64,000 nt of DNA from Methanobacteriota archaeon (lineage in GTDB: Archaea > Thermoplasmatota > Poseidoniia > Poseidoniales > Thalassarchaeaceae), in the NCBI GenBank assembly GCA_004195615.1, contig PSPW01000005.1:1-64000 (forward strand), in the 5' to 3' direction. This document shows, in pieces, positions 45,079 to 55,169 of the stretch (the first letter of the stretch is position 1; each line of letters begins with the position of its first letter). The position numbers and the translations under genes were made by a program. The notes under the pieces were generated by a model, which was not told where the DNA came from, did no database searches, and worked only from the letters and a program-made list of their open reading frames with translations.

Positions 45079-46200
45079 TCAGTAGTGAGAGAAGACCACA
45101 TCGGAGTCTGAGTGAGTAACCAATCTGCCATTATCAACAACTTGCCCCACCCTTCTGCTTCCTGGAAGCCGATCACCAAGCCATTCCTCTACTAACTCAG
45201 CACAACTCTCCGAGACAGCAATCACCATCCCCATCCCCATGTTGAATGTCCGATGCATCTCCAATGCGGTGACAGATCCAACCTTGGAGATCCATCCGAA
45301 CTCGGGTTGTGGGTCCAGAGGTTCGTCGATGTGCCACCCAAGGTTGCCATGGAGTCGAAGAAGGTTGGACAAACCCCCTCCTGTGATATGCACTATTGCC
45401 TTGATCGATTCAGGCTCCACAAAACCCCCCTCACGCCTAGATTCCAAAACAAGATCTACCACTGGATCAACATAGATCCGCGTTGGGTTCAGCACCACTT
45501 CGCCTAGAGTTATCGGGCCATCTCGTCCGGAAAACCTCTCGATTTTCCTAGAATTGTGTTCCGGATTGAATGGAGAGGAATCTTCTAACGAGCATCCCGA
45601 CCTCTCAATTACCGCACGAACCAGGGTGTACCCGTTAGAGTGAATTCCACTGCTGGGTAGCCCGATCAGTACGTCACCTTCCATCAGATTCTGGCCGGTG
45701 ATTCCACAGTTCTTCGGAAACCAACCTAGAGCGGTTCCCGAGAGATCGAGTTCCTTCACTATCCCAGGCAGGGTTGCAGTCTCACCACCCGCAAGCGTCA
45801 CTCTGGCTGTTTCGCAAGCCCTAGAAAGAGAACCACCAAGCGAAGCGTGAACCTCTGGATCCGCTATTGGAACTGCGATGTAGTCCACAAAGGCAAGCGG
45901 CTCTGCTCCAACACAAATCAGGTCGTTCACGTTCATGGCAACGCAGTCGAACCCCACTCCCCCTAGTTGGCCAACCTCACTCGCAATCTGCAACTTGGAG
46001 CCAACTCCATCAGTAGCCAACGCAAGACAGGATTCTCCGAATTCGATTACTCCTCCGAACCCCCCAGGCAGGTCTACTGGCGCTCCTAGTTCTCCCGGGG
46101 ATCTCTTTGAGCGGGACAAGGACCCGATCAAGCTAGCCACAGCCCTCCCCTCCAGAGCTATGTCAACCCCACTGGATGCGTAGTCTAGGGGGTCTTCCAT
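45079..46200 (-). CDS. purM: Phosphoribosylformylglycinamidine cyclo-ligase (AIR synthetase)
   Basis: 373 aa. It closes the imidazole ring in purine synthesis using ATP. Motifs: YASSGVDI near the start, ALATDGVGSKL, DCVAMNVNDLICVGAEPL, LAGGETATLPG and GLPSSGIHSNGYTLVR, all in family order. The C-terminal domain has HITGGGLSNLLR. First gene of a purM-trm1 pair. No other pur genes are present here. Confidence 0.96.
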   Translation of the reverse strand: MEDPLDYASSGVDIALEGRAVASLIGSLSRSKRSPGELGAPVDLPGGFGGVIEFGESCLALATDGVGSKLQIASEVGQLGGVGFDCVAMNVNDLICVGAEPLAFVDYIAVPIADPEVHASLGGSLSRACETARVTLAGGETATLPGIVKELDLSGTALGWFPKNCGITGQNLMEGDVLIGLPSSGIHSNGYTLVRAVIERSGCSLEDSSPFNPEHNSRKIERFSGRDGPITLGEVVLNPTRIYVDPVVDLVLESRREGGFVEPESIKAIVHITGGGLSNLLRLHGNLGWHIDEPLDPQPEFGWISKVGSVTALEMHRTFNMGMGMVIAVSESCAELVEEWLGDRLPGSRRVGQVVDNGRLVTHSDSDVVFSHY

Positions 46201-46384: not shown

Positions 46385-49300
46385 ATGTATAACAAGAAAA
46401 CAATAGCAATGATGCTTACCCTGAGCATGCTAGCGGCTAGTCTCGCTGGATGCGCAGGTGGGGACGACGACTGGGACGCAGAAAATGCAGCTAGTGATGT
46501 CAGCGTAGTATGGGTGGAGTCCGCTTGGGACCCCATCATCCCCAACCTGAATGCCGGCGAGATGTGCGATCTAATCATCTCGGCCATGACCAAGACAGAT
46601 GAGCGCGATCAGGTCGTCGACTTCACCAGGGCTTACTACACAAGTAGCCAGGGAGTAATCGGCGGAACCGGATCAACCGCCATCAGCGATGTCTCCGAGC
46701 TTAATGCTGCTGGAGTCACCATCGGAGTACAGTCCGGGACGACCTCTGACCTGTACGCTGACGCGAACCTTGCAATGGCAACCACCTCTGCATACGAGGA
46801 CTTCCCATCAGTCATCGCTGCCCTAAACAACGGGGACGTGATGTACGCAATGGGCGACGCACCTGTGCTATCGCTAGAGTCTGACCTGTTGACGACCTTC
46901 TCCGATGAGAACTTCGGTTTCGCTGTCCGCGAGGACTCGGGCGACCTTCTAGATGCCCTCAACGCGGCTATCGGCGCAATAATCGACTCGGGAGAGTACG
47001 ACGCGATCTATTCAGCATCCTTCAATGGAGCAGTCACCCTTGCGGATGACAGCACCACTGACACGGCTACCGCGTACCCTGCTACACCCAGTGGATCAAG
47101 CGACCTTGCTGGTGTTCTGGACTCCGGAGCACTGAACATCTGCACAGACCCGTTCTACGCTCCTTTCGAGAGCTATGACGCAGACATGAACGTGGTCGGC
47201 TTCGACGCAGATATCGCGCACGCAATCGCAGATGAGATTGCAGCCCACTACATGGGCACCGCGAATCCGATGTTCGCCGGCGATCCACTACCACTGCCAA
47301 CGACTGTCATCAGGATCGGAGCAATGTACGACTCTACCGGCCCAATCGGTAACTTCGGACCTGGTTTCGACTTCGCCACGGCAGCAGCCATCACGGCTCT
47401 GAATGCAATGGGCAATGATGACGCTAACGGAAACGACATCGTCTACGAGATAGTATACGGTGACACCGGATGCGACGGAACGACCGCAGGAACCTCTGCT
47501 CAGACTCTGGTAGACTCCGGAGTCGTCGCAGTGGCCGGAGCGGCTTGCTCTGGCGCTTCGATAGGTGCCAACGCAGTCCTTTCCGCAGCTGGAATCCCGA
47601 TGGTCTCCTTCGCGAGCACATCACCAGCACTCAGTGATGCAACGACATACCCTGACTTCTTCAGGGTCGTCCCAAGCGATGCGATCCAGGGAGAGGCAAT
47701 GTCTGACATGGTCGCGGCAGCCGGAGTAACCACCCCCGCGCTCCTGCACATGGTCAACGCATACGGTGCTGGCCTAGCTGACTCGTTCAAGATGAACTGG
47801 GAAGCAGCAGGGAACACCCTATGCACGCAGGCTGGATACGATGAGACCGCCCTAACTGATGCTGCAAGCATCGTCCAGGGCGTCATCGACGCTGGAACCT
47901 GCGACTCTGTCGTGCTAATCGCGTACAACACGGACGCGGCACTGATCCTCGAGACTATGGCCGGACTGGGCGCAACCCTACCGGTCTTCGGGGCTGATGG
48001 ATTCGCTGGAGAGGCGGCTCTTGAGTCGTTCAACGCACCCGAGGTTACCAACGGTGTCCAGAACACCAAACCAAGGGCAGCTTCCGGAAGCGGCGACTTC
48101 GCCGCTAATTGCGCTGCTGACACAGTTTGCTCGGCTGGCATCTTCACCTCCGAGGCTTACGACGCGGTCATGATAATCGGAATGGCAGCCTCTCATGAGG
48201 ACGGAGCCAATATGGCGAACCACATCAACATGGTCGGCGCTGGAGACGGATACGCAGGAGCAAGCGGGAACCAGGTGTTCCTGTCCAACGGAGACGTCGG
48301 CGGATCGGGGTACGATGTGTGCACCTTCCACCACGTTCCAACATTCGGCCAGTACTTCAACTGTGACAGGATGTGGACGGCAACCGGTGGACTGGCTGAC
48401 GTGACCTTCGCGGGCACGACAGTCAAGATTGGCTTCATGGGTGACGCAACCAGCCCTGCGATTGGCGACTTCTGGGTTCCATTCCAGGCAGCCGCTGGAG
48501 TCGGCCTTTCTCTGGCTAACATCGTCGCTTACAGCAACGGTGTGCAGTTCGAGATTGTCTGGGGCGACACGGCTTGCGACGGAACGACTGCAGCCACAGC
48601 GGCTCAGTCCCTAGTCGACGCAGGTGTATGGGGAGTAGTCGGAGCAGCATGCTCCGGAGCATCCATTGGCGCCAACGCGGTTCTTTCCGCAGCTGGAATC
48701 CCGATGATATCGTACGCGAGCACGTCACCAGCACTCAGTGATGCAACGACATACCCTGACTTCTTCAGGGTCGTCCCAAGCGACGCAGGGCAGGGTCTGG
48801 CACTATCTGACCTTCTAACTGCAAACTCAGAGACCGACGTTGCGTTGGTCCACATGGTCAACGCATACGGCGCAGGTCTGGCTGACGCGTTCAAGATGAA
48901 CTGGGAAGCAGCAGGGAACACCCTCTGCACGCAGATCGGATACGACGAGACCGCTACCACCGACTACTCAGCAATCATCCAGCAGGTTACGGATGCTCAG
49001 TGCGGTGCAGTAGTCACTGTGTCCTACAACTCTGACGGCGGCCTAATCATCGGCGAGCTGGCAGCAGCTGGCTTCGCCGGGCAGATCTACGGTACCGACG
49101 GAATCGCAGAGACAGCAATCGGGAACTACACGAGCGCAGCCAACCTGAACGGCGTCATCGCAACCAAGCCGGCATCGGCATCGGCAAGCGAGGTCTCCAT
49201 GACCTTCGCCTACCTGTGTGCAACGACACCCCCATGCGGCGACGGTATCTTCACCGCTGAGGCGTTCGACGCTCTGACCATGATGGCGTTCTCCGCCTTC

Positions 49301-49525
49301 ACCTTCCTGACCACACCAGGCATCACCGCCTCTCAGGCGATTGCTGGTACGGCAGGATCGGGATGGAACGGTGCCTCTGGCACCATCACGTTCCTAGCGA
49401 ACGGTGACACCCCAGGATCCGGTTACTGTATCGGATCCTACACTGGGACTTCAGTCAACGGCGTTGATACGCTGTCCTTCGACTGCAATCAGCACTGGGG
49501 CTCCAACGGCCTGACTGATCTCTGA
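46385..49525 (+). CDS. Substrate-binding lipoprotein: rearranged SBP_bac_3 domain fused to two LivJ-type (Peripla_BP_6) domains
   Basis: 1046 aa. Lipobox LAGC with Cys23. Residues about 39-225 match an amino-acid-binding SBP_bac_3 domain from its middle onward (SAWDPIIPNLNAGEMCDLI, SGTTSDLYAD, SGEYDAIY). The missing first part of that fold appears afterwards at about 249-290 (ALNICTDPFYAPFE, VVGFDADIAHAIADE), so the domain looks circularly permuted. Two LivJ-type domains follow (about 306-670 and 672-1046), each with VGAACSGASIGANAVLSAAG-type and YPDFFRVVPSD motifs, very similar to each other. It binds ligand outside the cell for the downstream permease and ATPases; ligands are probably amino acids or similar, by family. 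Confidence 0.88.
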   Translation: MYNKKTIAMMLTLSMLAASLAGCAGGDDDWDAENAASDVSVVWVESAWDPIIPNLNAGEMCDLIISAMTKTDERDQVVDFTRAYYTSSQGVIGGTGSTAISDVSELNAAGVTIGVQSGTTSDLYADANLAMATTSAYEDFPSVIAALNNGDVMYAMGDAPVLSLESDLLTTFSDENFGFAVREDSGDLLDALNAAIGAIIDSGEYDAIYSASFNGAVTLADDSTTDTATAYPATPSGSSDLAGVLDSGALNICTDPFYAPFESYDADMNVVGFDADIAHAIADEIAAHYMGTANPMFAGDPLPLPTTVIRIGAMYDSTGPIGNFGPGFDFATAAAITALNAMGNDDANGNDIVYEIVYGDTGCDGTTAGTSAQTLVDSGVVAVAGAACSGASIGANAVLSAAGIPMVSFASTSPALSDATTYPDFFRVVPSDAIQGEAMSDMVAAAGVTTPALLHMVNAYGAGLADSFKMNWEAAGNTLCTQAGYDETALTDAASIVQGVIDAGTCDSVVLIAYNTDAALILETMAGLGATLPVFGADGFAGEAALESFNAPEVTNGVQNTKPRAASGSGDFAANCAADTVCSAGIFTSEAYDAVMIIGMAASHEDGANMANHINMVGAGDGYAGASGNQVFLSNGDVGGSGYDVCTFHHVPTFGQYFNCDRMWTATGGLADVTFAGTTVKIGFMGDATSPAIGDFWVPFQAAAGVGLSLANIVAYSNGVQFEIVWGDTACDGTTAATAAQSLVDAGVWGVVGAACSGASIGANAVLSAAGIPMISYASTSPALSDATTYPDFFRVVPSDAGQGLALSDLLTANSETDVALVHMVNAYGAGLADAFKMNWEAAGNTLCTQIGYDETATTDYSAIIQQVTDAQCGAVVTVSYNSDGGLIIGELAAAGFAGQIYGTDGIAETAIGNYTSAANLNGVIATKPASASASEVSMTFAYLCATTPPCGDGIFTAEAFDALTMMAFSAFTFLTTPGITASQAIAGTAGSGWNGASGTITFLANGDTPGSGYCIGSYTGTSVNGVDTLSFDCNQHWGSNGLTDL
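47621..48783 (+). repeat. Pair of identical 59-base segments within the binding-protein gene (47621-47679 and 48725-48783)
   Basis: The two segments begin TCACCAGCACTCAGTGATGC and are identical for 59 bases, coding the same stretch of each LivJ-type domain (SPALSDATTYPDFFRVVPSD). A further near-37-base identity lies around 47784-47820 and 48888-48924. Synonymous sites are also conserved, so the duplication is recent or maintained by gene conversion. Confidence 0.85.
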
Positions 49526-49633: not shown

Positions 49634-52600
49634 GTGCCGGAGGGAAGAAACATCGAACTAATTTCCAGCCTCAAGAGTCTGAAAGAGTATCACTGGGATG
49701 ATCTAGCGCGGATTAGGAAGAGACTCATTATCGCAACCCTGCTGATAGCAGACGCATTCGTAGGACTCCTATACCACACTAGCTCTCTGAACCTTCTTGA
49801 CTACATACTCGCGGACAACCTTCCCTTCGAAATGGTATTTCTCCTTCAGAGTGTTCAAGCAATCTCCTGTGGTTTCTTCTACGTAAAGATACTATTCGAT
49901 GACGCCAAGTCAGGAATCCTTCGTAGCCTGGGAATGTTTGGCTCTCCATTCTTCCTCCTTGCAGTCATATTCATCACACTAGAATTCCTGTTTACAGGGC
50001 AGGGTTTGGCCACTGACATCAACATAGACTCGATTGCTATCGTGAGGGAAACACTCACTCACTCCTCCACCTTCCTCTCAATTGCCCTTGGCCTAACTCT
50101 CACTTACAAGGTCCAGAGGTACGGAAACTTCGCGCAGTCGGAGTTCTTCATGATTGGAATGTTCACTACTTTCGTCATTTCCTGGACCGGCGTATACTCC
50201 CCAATATTCGATTCCCCGAGAGACGACGTGATAGTATGGACACTCTTGTTCAGAGTCATCGTGGCCGCCTTCATAATCACGGGCATTGCAGGGGTCATGG
50301 TCGACCTCCTCGTCTACCGAGGTTTCAGGCTAAGGGATGCGACTCCACAGGTCATGATGATCGGATCTCTGGGTGTTGCTTTGGCCCTGAGAGCAATATT
50401 CTACCTCAGATTCACCTCGGATAAGAGACAATGGTTCCCTGACATGGACTTCTCCGACCAGTATACGCAGAAATGGATATTTCCCACTACCAAATTACGA
50501 ATTTGGCTCGGAGACAGGTCGTTAGCGGGCAGCGAGGACGTCAATGGAAACGGTGTGTTTGACGTTGAAACCTACACTCAAGCCCACGCTAACGCAGGAG
50601 AAATCCCAATGGGGGCCGCCATTGGAGATATTATCCCCGGAACAGGTGAGGACCTAGATGGCGATGGCCGCCTCGATGTCGCACAGTCGTACACTCACAA
50701 TAACTGCGAGCAGTCGACGAACCCCGAAACAGGCGAACTGATGTTCGACGAGGCGTCTGGAGATCCAATTCTAGAGAGGATAGTGACCGAGGGCTGGAGT
50801 CCCGGCAATCCCGGTTCAGGTGGATCCAGGCCAGCCTTCGAGCTCTACGACGTGGGTGTCGACTGCGTTTCTCAGGCTACTAACTACTATTCTTACCTGA
50901 AGGGATCCGTTGCAGCCACGATTTTCACCGCCTCAATCCTACTCTACCTGTTCCTAACCAAGTCTCGTCTCGGCATGCAAATGCGGGCTGTGGCCGATAA
51001 CCCCGAACTCGCAGCAAGCAGTGGAATCAACGTGGAGAGGGTGCAGACGATCAGTGCTTTCCTCTCTGCAGGCATCTCCGGAATCGGCGGTTCGGTGTTC
51101 GCTATGACATACCTGTGGAACCCAGTCTCTGCCTTCACACTCCTGCTCCCCGCCTTCGCCATAATCGTACTGGGGACGATAGGTTCGATTCCCGGCGCCA
51201 TAGTCGCGTCCATTATCGTGGGATTCACCAAGGCCGTTTCTGCTGTAATCCTCATGGGGATCGGTCCTGACTTGCATGACAGATACTCCTACTTCACTTT
51301 GGCCGATGTGATGCCCTACGCATTCCTGATAGCTATCCTGCTGATTATGCCCCAGGGGATAGGACATGCATGGGAGGAGTGGAAGATAGAGCGCATGAGG
51401 AAGACGACCACCCCCGATCCAGAGGATTCGAGGAACTCTAGGGCTGCTCTCGCTTTCCTGCCGACAGGGATATTCGGCCTTCATCACTGGTGGGGCGGTC
51501 GCTCAGACAAGGCCCAGAACTACTCCCTAGTGGCTATCGCCGCCTATCTCTTTCACAGGTTCTCCTCCTTCATCGGCCGAGAGTCTCTCTCCGATGATGG
51601 CTGCGGGAACGTTTGCTCCGAATCACTAGATGACATGAAGGAGGAGCTGGCCGACCTCGCAATAATCATCGAACCATCCACCGAAGAAGTCGGACGCATG
51701 GATGAACTAATCATCTCAATTGACGACTACTCGAAAACCAACCTAGAGGTATTGACTGGCAGGGAAGACGGTACTCTGATGGTCGAAGACTCACCATACT
51801 TCTCCGAAGCACCGTCTACACTGGACGAATCGTGGCTCGACTTGATGCAGACCGAGATCCAGACCGTGGACCTGATTGCCGATGCAGGTGATCTGATATG
51901 GCCACTGATACCACTTTTGCTTTGGGCACTAGCAATCTACGAGGGAACTAGGATCTTGAGGGAGGGTAAACTTCCCTCCTCTGTGAGCGAAAGAAGTCGA
52001 ATTCGCGGTATTACTTCGCCTTTCAATGAGATTTCAACTCTCATTCAAATTCTCAGAACCCCCTGGGAAAGGGGCAGATCACTAATCAGGACTGCTGACA
52101 GAAGACACTCCGACACAGTCCTTTCCGTGAAAGCCTGGATGACAAACCAGGTAGCACCGACCAAGGATTTGTTCGCGCGGGAGTCAACTGGAGGTCCCTA
52201 CGTTCTCCAGTTTCCAACTCTCAGTAGGCTCCCATCTTGGCTCAATATCCCTTATGGCAGACGTGGTAAGACGGGTTCAAACATAGCATTCCTTGTTCTA
52301 TTACTAGTTTTGTTAGGCTTCCTTTGGTGGCTACCAATCACCGATTCAGATACATGGAGGTGGAACAAGGTGTTCCAAGTCTCAAACGTAGTCTCCTTAC
52401 TTTGCGTCTTCATCCTGATGAGCTTCTCCTTGAACCTCCATACCGGTTACACTGGAATGGTAAACTTCGGAGTGATTTTCTTCGTCGCAATCGGTGGGGT
52501 TACGGTCGCAATCCTGACTGCACCGAAATCAGTGAACGGCTATGACTGGGGCTTCCCATCAGCAATAATCGCTTCCACAGTTCTCGCTGCGGCCATTGGT

Positions 52601-53659
52601 TGGGGTCTCGCATACCCCACTGCAAGACTTAGGACGGATTACTTCGCGATAGTCACGATATCGCTGGGTGAGATACTAAGGCAACTACTCGCCGTAGAAC
52701 CACTCCTTAGGACTGGATCAGCGGCGCAGGGGATATACAGTTATCCCAAGCCGCTGTACGAATGGTGGTTCTGCGGTAGCACGAATAGCGGCCCGGGAGA
52801 GGAATACTTCAGTCCCAACGATTGCAGGTCTGCCATGCTCGACTCGCCATCGATGGCCATCAGTAACCTCCTCGATCTGGGCAATCCAGCGCCCTACTTC
52901 ACTCTGCTGTCAATAATCGGACTCATCGCGGTCATAGCAGTTTGGATCCTACTCGAATCTCTGATTTCATCACCTTGGGGAAGGGTACTGAAGGCCATTA
53001 GGGAGGACGAAGAAGTGGCACAGCACCATGGCCACAACGTCCTGACTCACAAAGCGGCAAGCCTGGCACTCGGTGCTGTCATTGCTTCATTCGCGGGCTC
53101 CCTTTGGGTATGGAAACTGTCAGGGATAGAGTCACCATGGATGGCCCCCGCCACATCCACATTCCTAGTATGGGCCGCGTTTGTTATCGGTGGGACAGGG
53201 AACAACCGGGGGATGATCATCGGCTCATTCATCATGGTCCTGATGCACTTTGTCTTCAACGTCCTGATTGCAGCTAGCTCCCCCGATCTGCCACTATACG
53301 CGACTGCGAATAGTATCGACAACCTCTTCGCGTGGATCGTCACCGAGCAGTGGGAGGTTACCAGGATATTCTTCCTAATCCTCCTATTTGGAATCCTGAT
53401 AAGATCCCGAGCCACAATTGAGATAGGAGCATGCGGGTCAATATTATTCGCATTCACCGCCCTAGTGCTGGGAGAAAGGACGATTCTCGAGGTAAACAAC
53501 ATCTACGGGGAGGTGTCCATCGCAGGTGCAGGGATGTCATACGTGAAGCTTCTCCTAATCGGGCTGCTGATGATATTCTCCATGAAGTTCAACCCAAGAG
53601 GACTTCTCCCAGAGGTGCCCAACAGGCCAGATAGACCATCAGGAGGCGACTCTCGATGA
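49634..53659 (+). CDS. Fused LivH-LivM branched-chain-amino-acid-type permease with two extra soluble regions
   Basis: 1341 aa; both permeases of the transporter on one chain. The LivH half (about 30-580) shows YGNFAQSEFFMIGMF and NPELAASSGINVERVQTISA. A soluble insert at about 265-415 carries two calcium-loop-like motifs, DVNGNGVFD (about 302) and DLDGDGRLD (about 340). A mostly soluble linker with one or two hydrophobic segments spans about 590-880. The LivM half (about 882-1330) shows NLHTGYTGMVNFGVIFFVA and AIREDEEVAQHHGHNV, the loop that meets the ATPase. The start is a GTG at 49634 with a weak ribosome site. The stop overlaps livG by 4 bases. Confidence 0.92.
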   Translation: MPEGRNIELISSLKSLKEYHWDDLARIRKRLIIATLLIADAFVGLLYHTSSLNLLDYILADNLPFEMVFLLQSVQAISCGFFYVKILFDDAKSGILRSLGMFGSPFFLLAVIFITLEFLFTGQGLATDINIDSIAIVRETLTHSSTFLSIALGLTLTYKVQRYGNFAQSEFFMIGMFTTFVISWTGVYSPIFDSPRDDVIVWTLLFRVIVAAFIITGIAGVMVDLLVYRGFRLRDATPQVMMIGSLGVALALRAIFYLRFTSDKRQWFPDMDFSDQYTQKWIFPTTKLRIWLGDRSLAGSEDVNGNGVFDVETYTQAHANAGEIPMGAAIGDIIPGTGEDLDGDGRLDVAQSYTHNNCEQSTNPETGELMFDEASGDPILERIVTEGWSPGNPGSGGSRPAFELYDVGVDCVSQATNYYSYLKGSVAATIFTASILLYLFLTKSRLGMQMRAVADNPELAASSGINVERVQTISAFLSAGISGIGGSVFAMTYLWNPVSAFTLLLPAFAIIVLGTIGSIPGAIVASIIVGFTKAVSAVILMGIGPDLHDRYSYFTLADVMPYAFLIAILLIMPQGIGHAWEEWKIERMRKTTTPDPEDSRNSRAALAFLPTGIFGLHHWWGGRSDKAQNYSLVAIAAYLFHRFSSFIGRESLSDDGCGNVCSESLDDMKEELADLAIIIEPSTEEVGRMDELIISIDDYSKTNLEVLTGREDGTLMVEDSPYFSEAPSTLDESWLDLMQTEIQTVDLIADAGDLIWPLIPLLLWALAIYEGTRILREGKLPSSVSERSRIRGITSPFNEISTLIQILRTPWERGRSLIRTADRRHSDTVLSVKAWMTNQVAPTKDLFARESTGGPYVLQFPTLSRLPSWLNIPYGRRGKTGSNIAFLVLLLVLLGFLWWLPITDSDTWRWNKVFQVSNVVSLLCVFILMSFSLNLHTGYTGMVNFGVIFFVAIGGVTVAILTAPKSVNGYDWGFPSAIIASTVLAAAIGWGLAYPTARLRTDYFAIVTISLGEILRQLLAVEPLLRTGSAAQGIYSYPKPLYEWWFCGSTNSGPGEEYFSPNDCRSAMLDSPSMAISNLLDLGNPAPYFTLLSIIGLIAVIAVWILLESLISSPWGRVLKAIREDEEVAQHHGHNVLTHKAASLALGAVIASFAGSLWVWKLSGIESPWMAPATSTFLVWAAFVIGGTGNNRGMIIGSFIMVLMHFVFNVLIAASSPDLPLYATANSIDNLFAWIVTEQWEVTRIFFLILLFGILIRSRATIEIGACGSILFAFTALVLGERTILEVNNIYGEVSIAGAGMSYVKLLLIGLLMIFSMKFNPRGLLPEVPNRPDRPSGGDSR

Positions 53660-54453
53660 AACCGGCACTAAGCGTCAGGGATCTTCGCAAGATGTTTGGA
53701 GGATTGGTAGCCGTTGATGATGTCTCGTTCGAGGTACAGCAGGGCGAATTCGTAGGCCTGATTGGACCAAATGGGTGTGGCAAATCAACGACGTTCAACT
53801 GCATCAGCGGCTTACTGGAAAAGACGGCGGGCGCAGTCGAGGTCTTCGGGGAGGACGTCACGGATCTGAGGCCCGACCAGATCCAGAAATTCGGCCTGAC
53901 ACGGACGTTCCAACATACTCGTCTATGGCGTGAGATGACAGTGATTGAGAACGATCTAGTCCCCCCGAGAAACCAGTTTGGAACGACAATACTGGAGCGT
54001 CTAACTTCACTCTTGCTGTCCAAATCAAACCCAGCCGAGACGGAGAGGTTGGAGACGGCCTACTCGATCCTAGACCAGCTCGAGGTCCCTCACATGGCGC
54101 ACAACCTGACTAGCGAGCTCTCAGGCGGGCAGAGCAAGCTCGTCGATATCGGTAGGTCGATGATGGGAGAGCCGAAACTACTCCTGCTGGACGAGCCCGT
54201 TGCAGGCGTGGCAGGACCCCTAGCGATGAAGATCTTCGAAAACCTAAGGAAGATGGTTGACGAGACGGGGATATCGGTCCTGATAATCGAACACAACATG
54301 GATTTCATCCTCCAACAGGGTGTTGACAGGATTGTGGTGATGAACGAGGGGAGGATACTCATGGAGGGAACTCCCGACGAGGTCAAGGGCAATAGGGCAG
54401 TAATTGAGGCGTATCTCGGAGCCGCTGGAGAGCCAAGGGAGGATGAGGAATGA
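53656..54453 (+). CDS. livG: ABC transporter ATPase, LivG type
   Basis: 265 aa. Walker A is GPNGCGKST, the signature is LSGGQSKLVDIG, and Walker B LLLLDEPVAGV. The long Q-loop region with FGLTRTFQHTRLW is typical of LivG. It powers the fused permease upstream. The ATG overlaps the permease stop by 4 bases (ATGA), and its own stop overlaps livF the same way, so the set is translationally coupled. An in-frame alternative start was not needed. Confidence 0.96.
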   Translation: MKPALSVRDLRKMFGGLVAVDDVSFEVQQGEFVGLIGPNGCGKSTTFNCISGLLEKTAGAVEVFGEDVTDLRPDQIQKFGLTRTFQHTRLWREMTVIENDLVPPRNQFGTTILERLTSLLLSKSNPAETERLETAYSILDQLEVPHMAHNLTSELSGGQSKLVDIGRSMMGEPKLLLLDEPVAGVAGPLAMKIFENLRKMVDETGISVLIIEHNMDFILQQGVDRIVVMNEGRILMEGTPDEVKGNRAVIEAYLGAAGEPREDEE

Positions 54454-55169
54454 CTCGTGTCCTAGATGTCTCAGGTCTCGAAGGGGGCTATGGTTCAGTG
54501 CAGATTCTATATGGAATAGACATGCATGTCGATGAGGGAGAATTCATCACAATCATCGGCCCGAACGGATGCGGCAAGTCCACGTTCATCAAGACGATTT
54601 TCGGAATCGCCACTTATTATCGCGGTGGGATTGAGTACATGGGCCACGACGTCTCTAGTTGGCGTACTGACCAGCTCGTCAACCATGGAATCGCATACGT
54701 CCCACAAGTGGACAACGTGTTCCCATCCCTGTCAGTACTCGAGAACCTCCAGATGGGCGGTAAATCACTCTCTAAGGGAGTACTGGACGAGAGGATTGAG
54801 AGGTCACTGGAGATGTTCTCGGATCTCAGGAATCGGGAGTACGACCTCGCAGCCTCCCTTTCGGGAGGAGAGAGGCAGATGCTGGCGATATCCCGAGCCC
54901 TGATCTCCGATCCGAAGTTCCTCCTGCTGGACGAGCCGACAGCAGCCCTCTCTCCCCTCTACCAACAGCAGATAATCGAGAGCATAGACTCCCTAAGAGA
55001 CAAGGGGATCACCATCCTGATTGTCGAGCAGAACGCTAGGCTCTCCCTTGCCAGATCCGATCGTGGCTACATCATCTCCAATGGCAAGGTGGTGCATTCG
55101 GGCGATGCTCAGCACATCCTGACTGATCCCGAGATCGGCGAGTACTTCCTCGGTTCCACCGGGAAATGA
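54450..55169 (+). CDS. livF: ABC transporter ATPase, LivF type
   Basis: 239 aa. Walker A is GPNGCGKST, signature LSGGERQMLAISRAL, Walker B LLLDEPTAALSP, and the switch-region IVEQNARLSL with the expected Gln in place of the usual His seen in LivF-type ATPases. The GIAYVPQVDNVFPSLSV stretch is LivF-typical. It pairs with LivG as the heterodimeric motor. Last gene of the operon. Confidence 0.96.
   Translation: MTRVLDVSGLEGGYGSVQILYGIDMHVDEGEFITIIGPNGCGKSTFIKTIFGIATYYRGGIEYMGHDVSSWRTDQLVNHGIAYVPQVDNVFPSLSVLENLQMGGKSLSKGVLDERIERSLEMFSDLRNREYDLAASLSGGERQMLAISRALISDPKFLLLDEPTAALSPLYQQQIIESIDSLRDKGITILIVEQNARLSLARSDRGYIISNGKVVHSGDAQHILTDPEIGEYFLGSTGK

Follow-up and report, generated by a model that had tools for sequence, protein, structure and literature searches.

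The window analysed here is a stretch of 64,000 nucleotides (contig PSPW01000005.1, assembly GCA_004195615.1) from an archaeon of the family Ca. Thalassarchaeaceae (Marine Group IIb), in which the gene at positions 46385-49525 encodes a lipoprotein receptor with an SBP_bac_3 domain followed by two LivJ-type domains. On the combined evidence of profile matches and a predicted structure, residues 38-224 and 241-297 of this receptor almost certainly form one Venus-flytrap domain with an intact amino acid site, in which the order of the two halves has been exchanged by a natural circular permutation. A genome scan placed positions 37-128 of the PF00497 profile (C-half) at receptor residues 38-211 (6.7e-20) and positions 1-37 (N-half) at residues of about 250-286 (window positions 47132-47242; 1.8e-6, 27.9 bits against a gathering score of 26.4). 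The domain in its native order scored 98.4 bits to PF00497 against a cut-off of 26.4, and restoring the halves to their usual order gave a single continuous match over positions 1-128 with 100.6 bits. Each element of the family occurs once, the order is rotated and the old termini are joined, with profile positions 37-128 preceding 1-37 in all permuted members and the new termini lying between helix 1 and strand 2. The joint carries the motif DDxTxDTATAYPxPSEGSxL, of which DDxTxDTATAYPxPSEGS is common to all permuted relatives. An initial annotation had described the second half of the family as coming first and its first strands afterwards, which was borne out by the swapped profile matches and by the same order in relatives, and the boundaries that it gave (39-225 and 249-290) were correct to within about 10 residues. 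Its view of the arrangement as a genuine circular permutation is likewise supported by the order in 73 genomes, the confident single domain, the retention of the ligand residues and the existence of relatives in ordinary order described below. The two complete LivJ-type domains that it had placed behind were also recovered, each matching the ANF_receptor and Peripla_BP_6 profiles in two stretches, and both the profiles and the Liv operon context identify receptor domains 2 and 3 as LivJ (Peripla_BP_6).

An AlphaFold model of residues 25-306, run with 33 relatives, packed both halves as one confident domain (predicted local distance difference test, pLDDT, 90.5; predicted template modelling score, pTM, 0.86), with the blocks of the N-half mostly at 93-96. 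In a Foldseek comparison with the PDB, the C-half aligned over about 170 of 225 residues at 1.7-2 Å to amino acid-binding proteins, the best match being AncCDT-1 (5t0w); a match confined to the C-half is as expected, because the comparison of a permuted domain was made in sequence order. Comparison with the tandem domains of GlnPQ (6h30) covered 260 columns at a root-mean-square deviation of 17 Å, and the N-half is therefore not placed where a following domain would begin. Both halves were equally conserved in an alignment of 33 permuted sequences (A1). The residues that we take to contact the amino acid in SBP_bac_3 proteins (Asp255, Tyr258, Glu262, Trp48, Thr69, Thr71, Arg74, Thr119 and Asp158), which lie in both halves, were fully or almost fully conserved across 24 of 24 permuted domains and likewise in A1. 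That the two halves do not pack within one chain, being either swapped with a second molecule or vestigial, is very improbable given this even conservation, the confidence of the monomer model over both halves and a linker of 16 residues that suffices in length. The model of the full-length receptor (pTM 0.49) was uninformative on domain packing; it shows no fixed packing between the domains, which would be compatible with an arrangement like beads on a string. One cysteine is also present in each half (Cys61, 46565-46567, and Cys253, 47141-47143), the pair being present in all Thalassarchaeaceae sequences compared (42 of 42, covering three arrangements) but in 0 of 15 sequences from elsewhere. 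A disulfide between the halves is conceivable, but counted on the GlnBP fold in an assumed register the two would lie about 4 residues apart along neighbouring strands.

Relatives were gathered by a protein search of the family and a peptide-pattern search of public genomes, and the A1 profile of the permuted domain was then run on 319 genomes of the order. Matches spanning the joint were counted in the search table for 73 genomes, all from the family of the window, and no A1 match was obtained in the order outside this family among the 319 genomes. The order C-half, N-half, LivJ, LivJ was found in every relative open reading frame (ORF) long enough to show it, so that the arrangement is conserved in homologues. 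Several of the assemblies are annotated in single-cell style (AH-287-M04, AG-422-I20, AG-457-A01, AG-313-L18 and AG-447-I14). An assembly error, or the collapsed tandem pair of SBP_bac_3 domains that the initial annotation had offered as its alternative, can be set aside with near certainty, because the same order is conserved in many independent assemblies (73 genomes, 57-91% identity over the domain, different assemblers and single-cell genomes), the reading frame is open with no stops, and a collapse between tandem copies would give back the ordinary order rather than the swapped one.

The ordinary order was found in the proteins of two genomes (L115 and L116), whose domain shares 51-56% identity with the permuted domain. 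These are large secreted proteins with open frames of 894 and 1219 amino acids (aa) and cysteine-rich repeats of the form GExIPxxWxxDGxxDCxDGSDE, the repeat of L116 being of the LDL-receptor class A type. In the phylum outside the class, the matches inspected in sampled genomes were in ordinary order, with lobe 1 before lobe 2. A second permutation (CP2), cut at the lobe boundary, was found in stand-alone proteins of about 320-350 aa (L117-L122, L128-L144; L149-L152, L162, L175, L254 and L255), in which lobe 2 and the last helix are followed by a linker, strand 1, helix 1, the rest of lobe 1 and a C-terminal membrane anchor. All ligand residues are kept in the CP2 proteins of family f3, which belongs to another order of the same class, and are lost in those of three Thalassarchaeaceae genera, where Arg74 is replaced by Ile, Val or Met and Asp158 is kept in 1 of 16. 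The CP2 linker is of the same kind as the receptor joint, reading DDTxANTATxYPxxPTG in f3, and the tail and head of linkers from neighbouring copies are discernible in the joint. An ancestor that was duplicated in tandem and then trimmed at differing points would fit these data and is proposed because the joint is alike in both permutations while the cut differs. In a tree of the reordered domains, permuted and ordinary domains of Poseidoniia grouped together against those of other Thermoplasmatota (100/100). The tree nested L115 and L116 inside the permuted clade, but this placement is tentative: by an approximately unbiased (AU) test, a single clade of all permuted rows was not rejected (p 0.38), and a reversion of the two to ordinary order is not claimed on this value.

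The receptor as a whole is probably best explained as a membrane-anchored three-domain protein whose permuted domain serves a PAAT importer and whose LivJ domains serve LivHMGF. In its first domain, a linker of about 16 residues connects the former N- and C-termini, and the new termini were opened at the site given above. The chain would be tethered to the membrane through its lipid, and the permuted domain would capture a polar amino acid and pass it to a YCF48-PAAT importer encoded elsewhere; the LivJ domains would deliver to LivHMGF, encoded next to the receptor. BPD_transp_1 permeases are the usual partners of SBP_bac_3 proteins. In family f3, the CP2 gene is arranged head-to-head with genes for a YCF48 beta-propeller-permease fusion (BPD_transp_1 plus PSII_BNR) and its ATPase, and the 17 CP2 genes of Thalassarchaeaceae stand in the same orientation to the orthologous YCF48-PAAT permease at a distance of <350 bp. 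In the genome of the window, this permease and its ATPase are found on contig C9 (1404-4568, L185) without an adjacent binding protein. The fused permuted domain was accompanied by the YCF48-PAAT permease in 72 of 79 genomes, and the permease occurred in 0 of 28 genomes, from a hand-compiled list, whose LivJ locus is seen and is without the permuted domain; 14 genomes showed the permease with no fused domain detected, the receptor locus being mostly missing or cut. A Fisher test of the co-occurrence gave p ~1e-19, a value inflated by kinship. Both domain and permease are present in genera g1, g5, g6, g7, g8 and g11 and neither in g2, g3 and g9. In genomes G128 and G145 (loci L246 and L247), the same lipobox of the orthologous locus leads directly into LivJ-LivJ, exactly the permuted domain being gone. 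This state is read as a loss because the LivJ tree nests both genomes among those that carry the domain; they are also without the YCF48-PAAT permease, their metagenome-assembled genomes (MAGs) being 76% and 63% complete. A conserved in-frame TGA in the YCF48-PAAT gene of genus g7 proved to be the ordinary gene end only.

Several points weigh against this explanation. The receptor gene sits in the LivHMGF operon and not with the PAAT permease, 7 genomes carry the domain without a detected YCF48-PAAT permease, and the genome of the window has other PAAT permeases (contigs C47, C20 and C17), one with its own ordinary binding protein. Few independent events (a single gain and a single loss in the LivJ tree) underlie the co-occurrence, which also draws on MAGs whose incompleteness weakens claims of absence, and the predicted fold identity of the permuted domain is judged from confidence scores, secondary structure and Foldseek. 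The initial annotation had suggested that the protein could offer a single Liv-type permease ligands of several kinds, so that the permuted domain, like the LivJ domains, would deliver to the adjacent LivHMGF and widen its range. Although the domains share one gene with an invariant linkage to LivHM-LivG-LivF, this is unlikely and the claim is probably wrong, since LivHM belongs to BPD_transp_2, the sibling CP2 genes lie beside the PAAT permease, which the permuted domain tracks instead, and genus g3 and genomes G128, G136 and G145 have LivHM with LivJ but without the permuted domain. It is more improbable that the permuted domain scavenges with high affinity or acts as a sensor, concentrating ligand at the membrane or regulating LivJ capture with no hand-over to a permease; no permease is encoded with it and the full-length model lacks fixed domain packing, but its ligand site is strictly conserved and its presence or absence follows that of the PAAT permease. 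Judged from genomic association, the proposal that one lipoprotein feeds two unrelated ATP-binding cassette (ABC) permeases is evenly balanced between true and false. A wider picture, in which one receptor serves two importers at once and the SBP_bac_3 order has been rotated at least twice in this lineage and may have reverted in two relatives, is more tentative and leans somewhat to the doubtful side.

The features of the locus are collected in Table 1. The putatively lipidated cysteine of the receptor was invariant in a full-length alignment of its relatives, and the gene order PurM (other strand) / receptor > LivHM > LivG > LivF was kept in relatives wherever the contig reaches. The LivH-LivM fusion has large extra loops, and in many relatives only parts of it align, at about 50% identity. 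A short module, GCxDxxAxNYNxxAxxDDGSC, occurs in the linkers of homologues L011, L055, L072, L246 and L247 and resembles an exchangeable spacer.

Table 1. Features of the receptor gene and its neighbours, in window coordinates.
Feature	Position	Strand	Basis
Three-domain lipoprotein, 1046 aa (lipobox, permuted SBP_bac_3 domain, two LivJ domains)	46385..49525	+	ATG start, ORF
Signal peptide and lipobox LAGC (LSMLAASLAGC), putatively lipidated Cys23	46385..46453	+	sequence
C-half of SBP_bac_3 domain, family positions 37-128, residues 38-224 (first)	46496..47056	+	
Linker, the permutation joint of old C-terminus to old N-terminus	47057..47104	+	
N-half of SBP_bac_3 domain, family positions 1-37 (strand 1, helix 1), residues 241-297 (second)	47105..47275	+	
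First LivJ-type domain (Peripla_BP_6 / ANF_receptor), residues 305-672	47297..48400	+	
Second LivJ-type domain, residues 677-1046	48413..49522	+	
LivH-LivM fused permease (1341 aa, BPD_transp_2), presumed to serve the LivJ domains	49634..53659	+	
LivG ATPase	53656..54453	+	
LivF ATPase	54450..55169	+	
PurM-like gene, divergent neighbour and conserved flank, outside the system	45079..46200	-	sequence, synteny; name is our reading of the protein

The receptor represents a natural permutant that is fixed across a family of abundant ocean archaea and has both ordinary-order and differently cut relatives, and it thus shows directly how the elements of a two-lobed fold can be rotated while its ligand site is retained. 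Should the assignment of partners be right, the receptor would also depart from the norm that each importer works with one class of binding protein. In Ca. Thalassarchaeaceae, the genes for LivK and AapJ receptors rank with the most highly transcribed (PMC9723583), so that receptors of this kind, if the transcribed livK is one of them, may matter for marine amino acid uptake. There is precedent for circular permutation itself, for tandem binding domains (GlnPQ) and for lipoprotein receptors. What appears to be new is a natural, family-wide SBP_bac_3 permutation that has two different cut points and is combined with LivJ domains; no description of it, nor of any naturally permuted SBP_bac_3 domain, was found in the limited collection of literature searched.

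Compared with known systems, the permuted domain shares its predicted fold and its family profile with the SBP_bac_3/PAAT binding proteins (GlnH, ArtJ, ArgT and AncCDT-1), together with the site formed by Asp255, Tyr258, Trp48, Thr69/71, Arg74, Thr119/120 and Asp158, but differs from them in being rotated, in being the first of three domains in a lipoprotein and in being encoded in a Liv operon. Receptor domains 2 and 3 resemble LivJ/LivK (Peripla_BP_6) and stand in the same gene order with LivHM, LivG and LivF; unlike LivJ/LivK, they are present as two copies per chain behind an SBP_bac_3 domain. Laboratories have built circularly permuted binding proteins for use in biosensors. Engineered permutants of periplasmic binding proteins, such as the permuted halves of ribose-binding protein (PMC9815098), reflect the same operation, but these are laboratory constructs on type I proteins, whereas the receptor domain is natural and of type II. 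In GlnPQ (PDB 6h30; PMC8025302), tandem binding domains in one chain raise the local receptor number and the ligand range. The receptor is like GlnPQ in having several binding domains per chain; the domains of GlnPQ, however, are unpermuted, both of the SBP_bac_3 family and fused to the permease, whereas the receptor mixes two families and is lipid-anchored.
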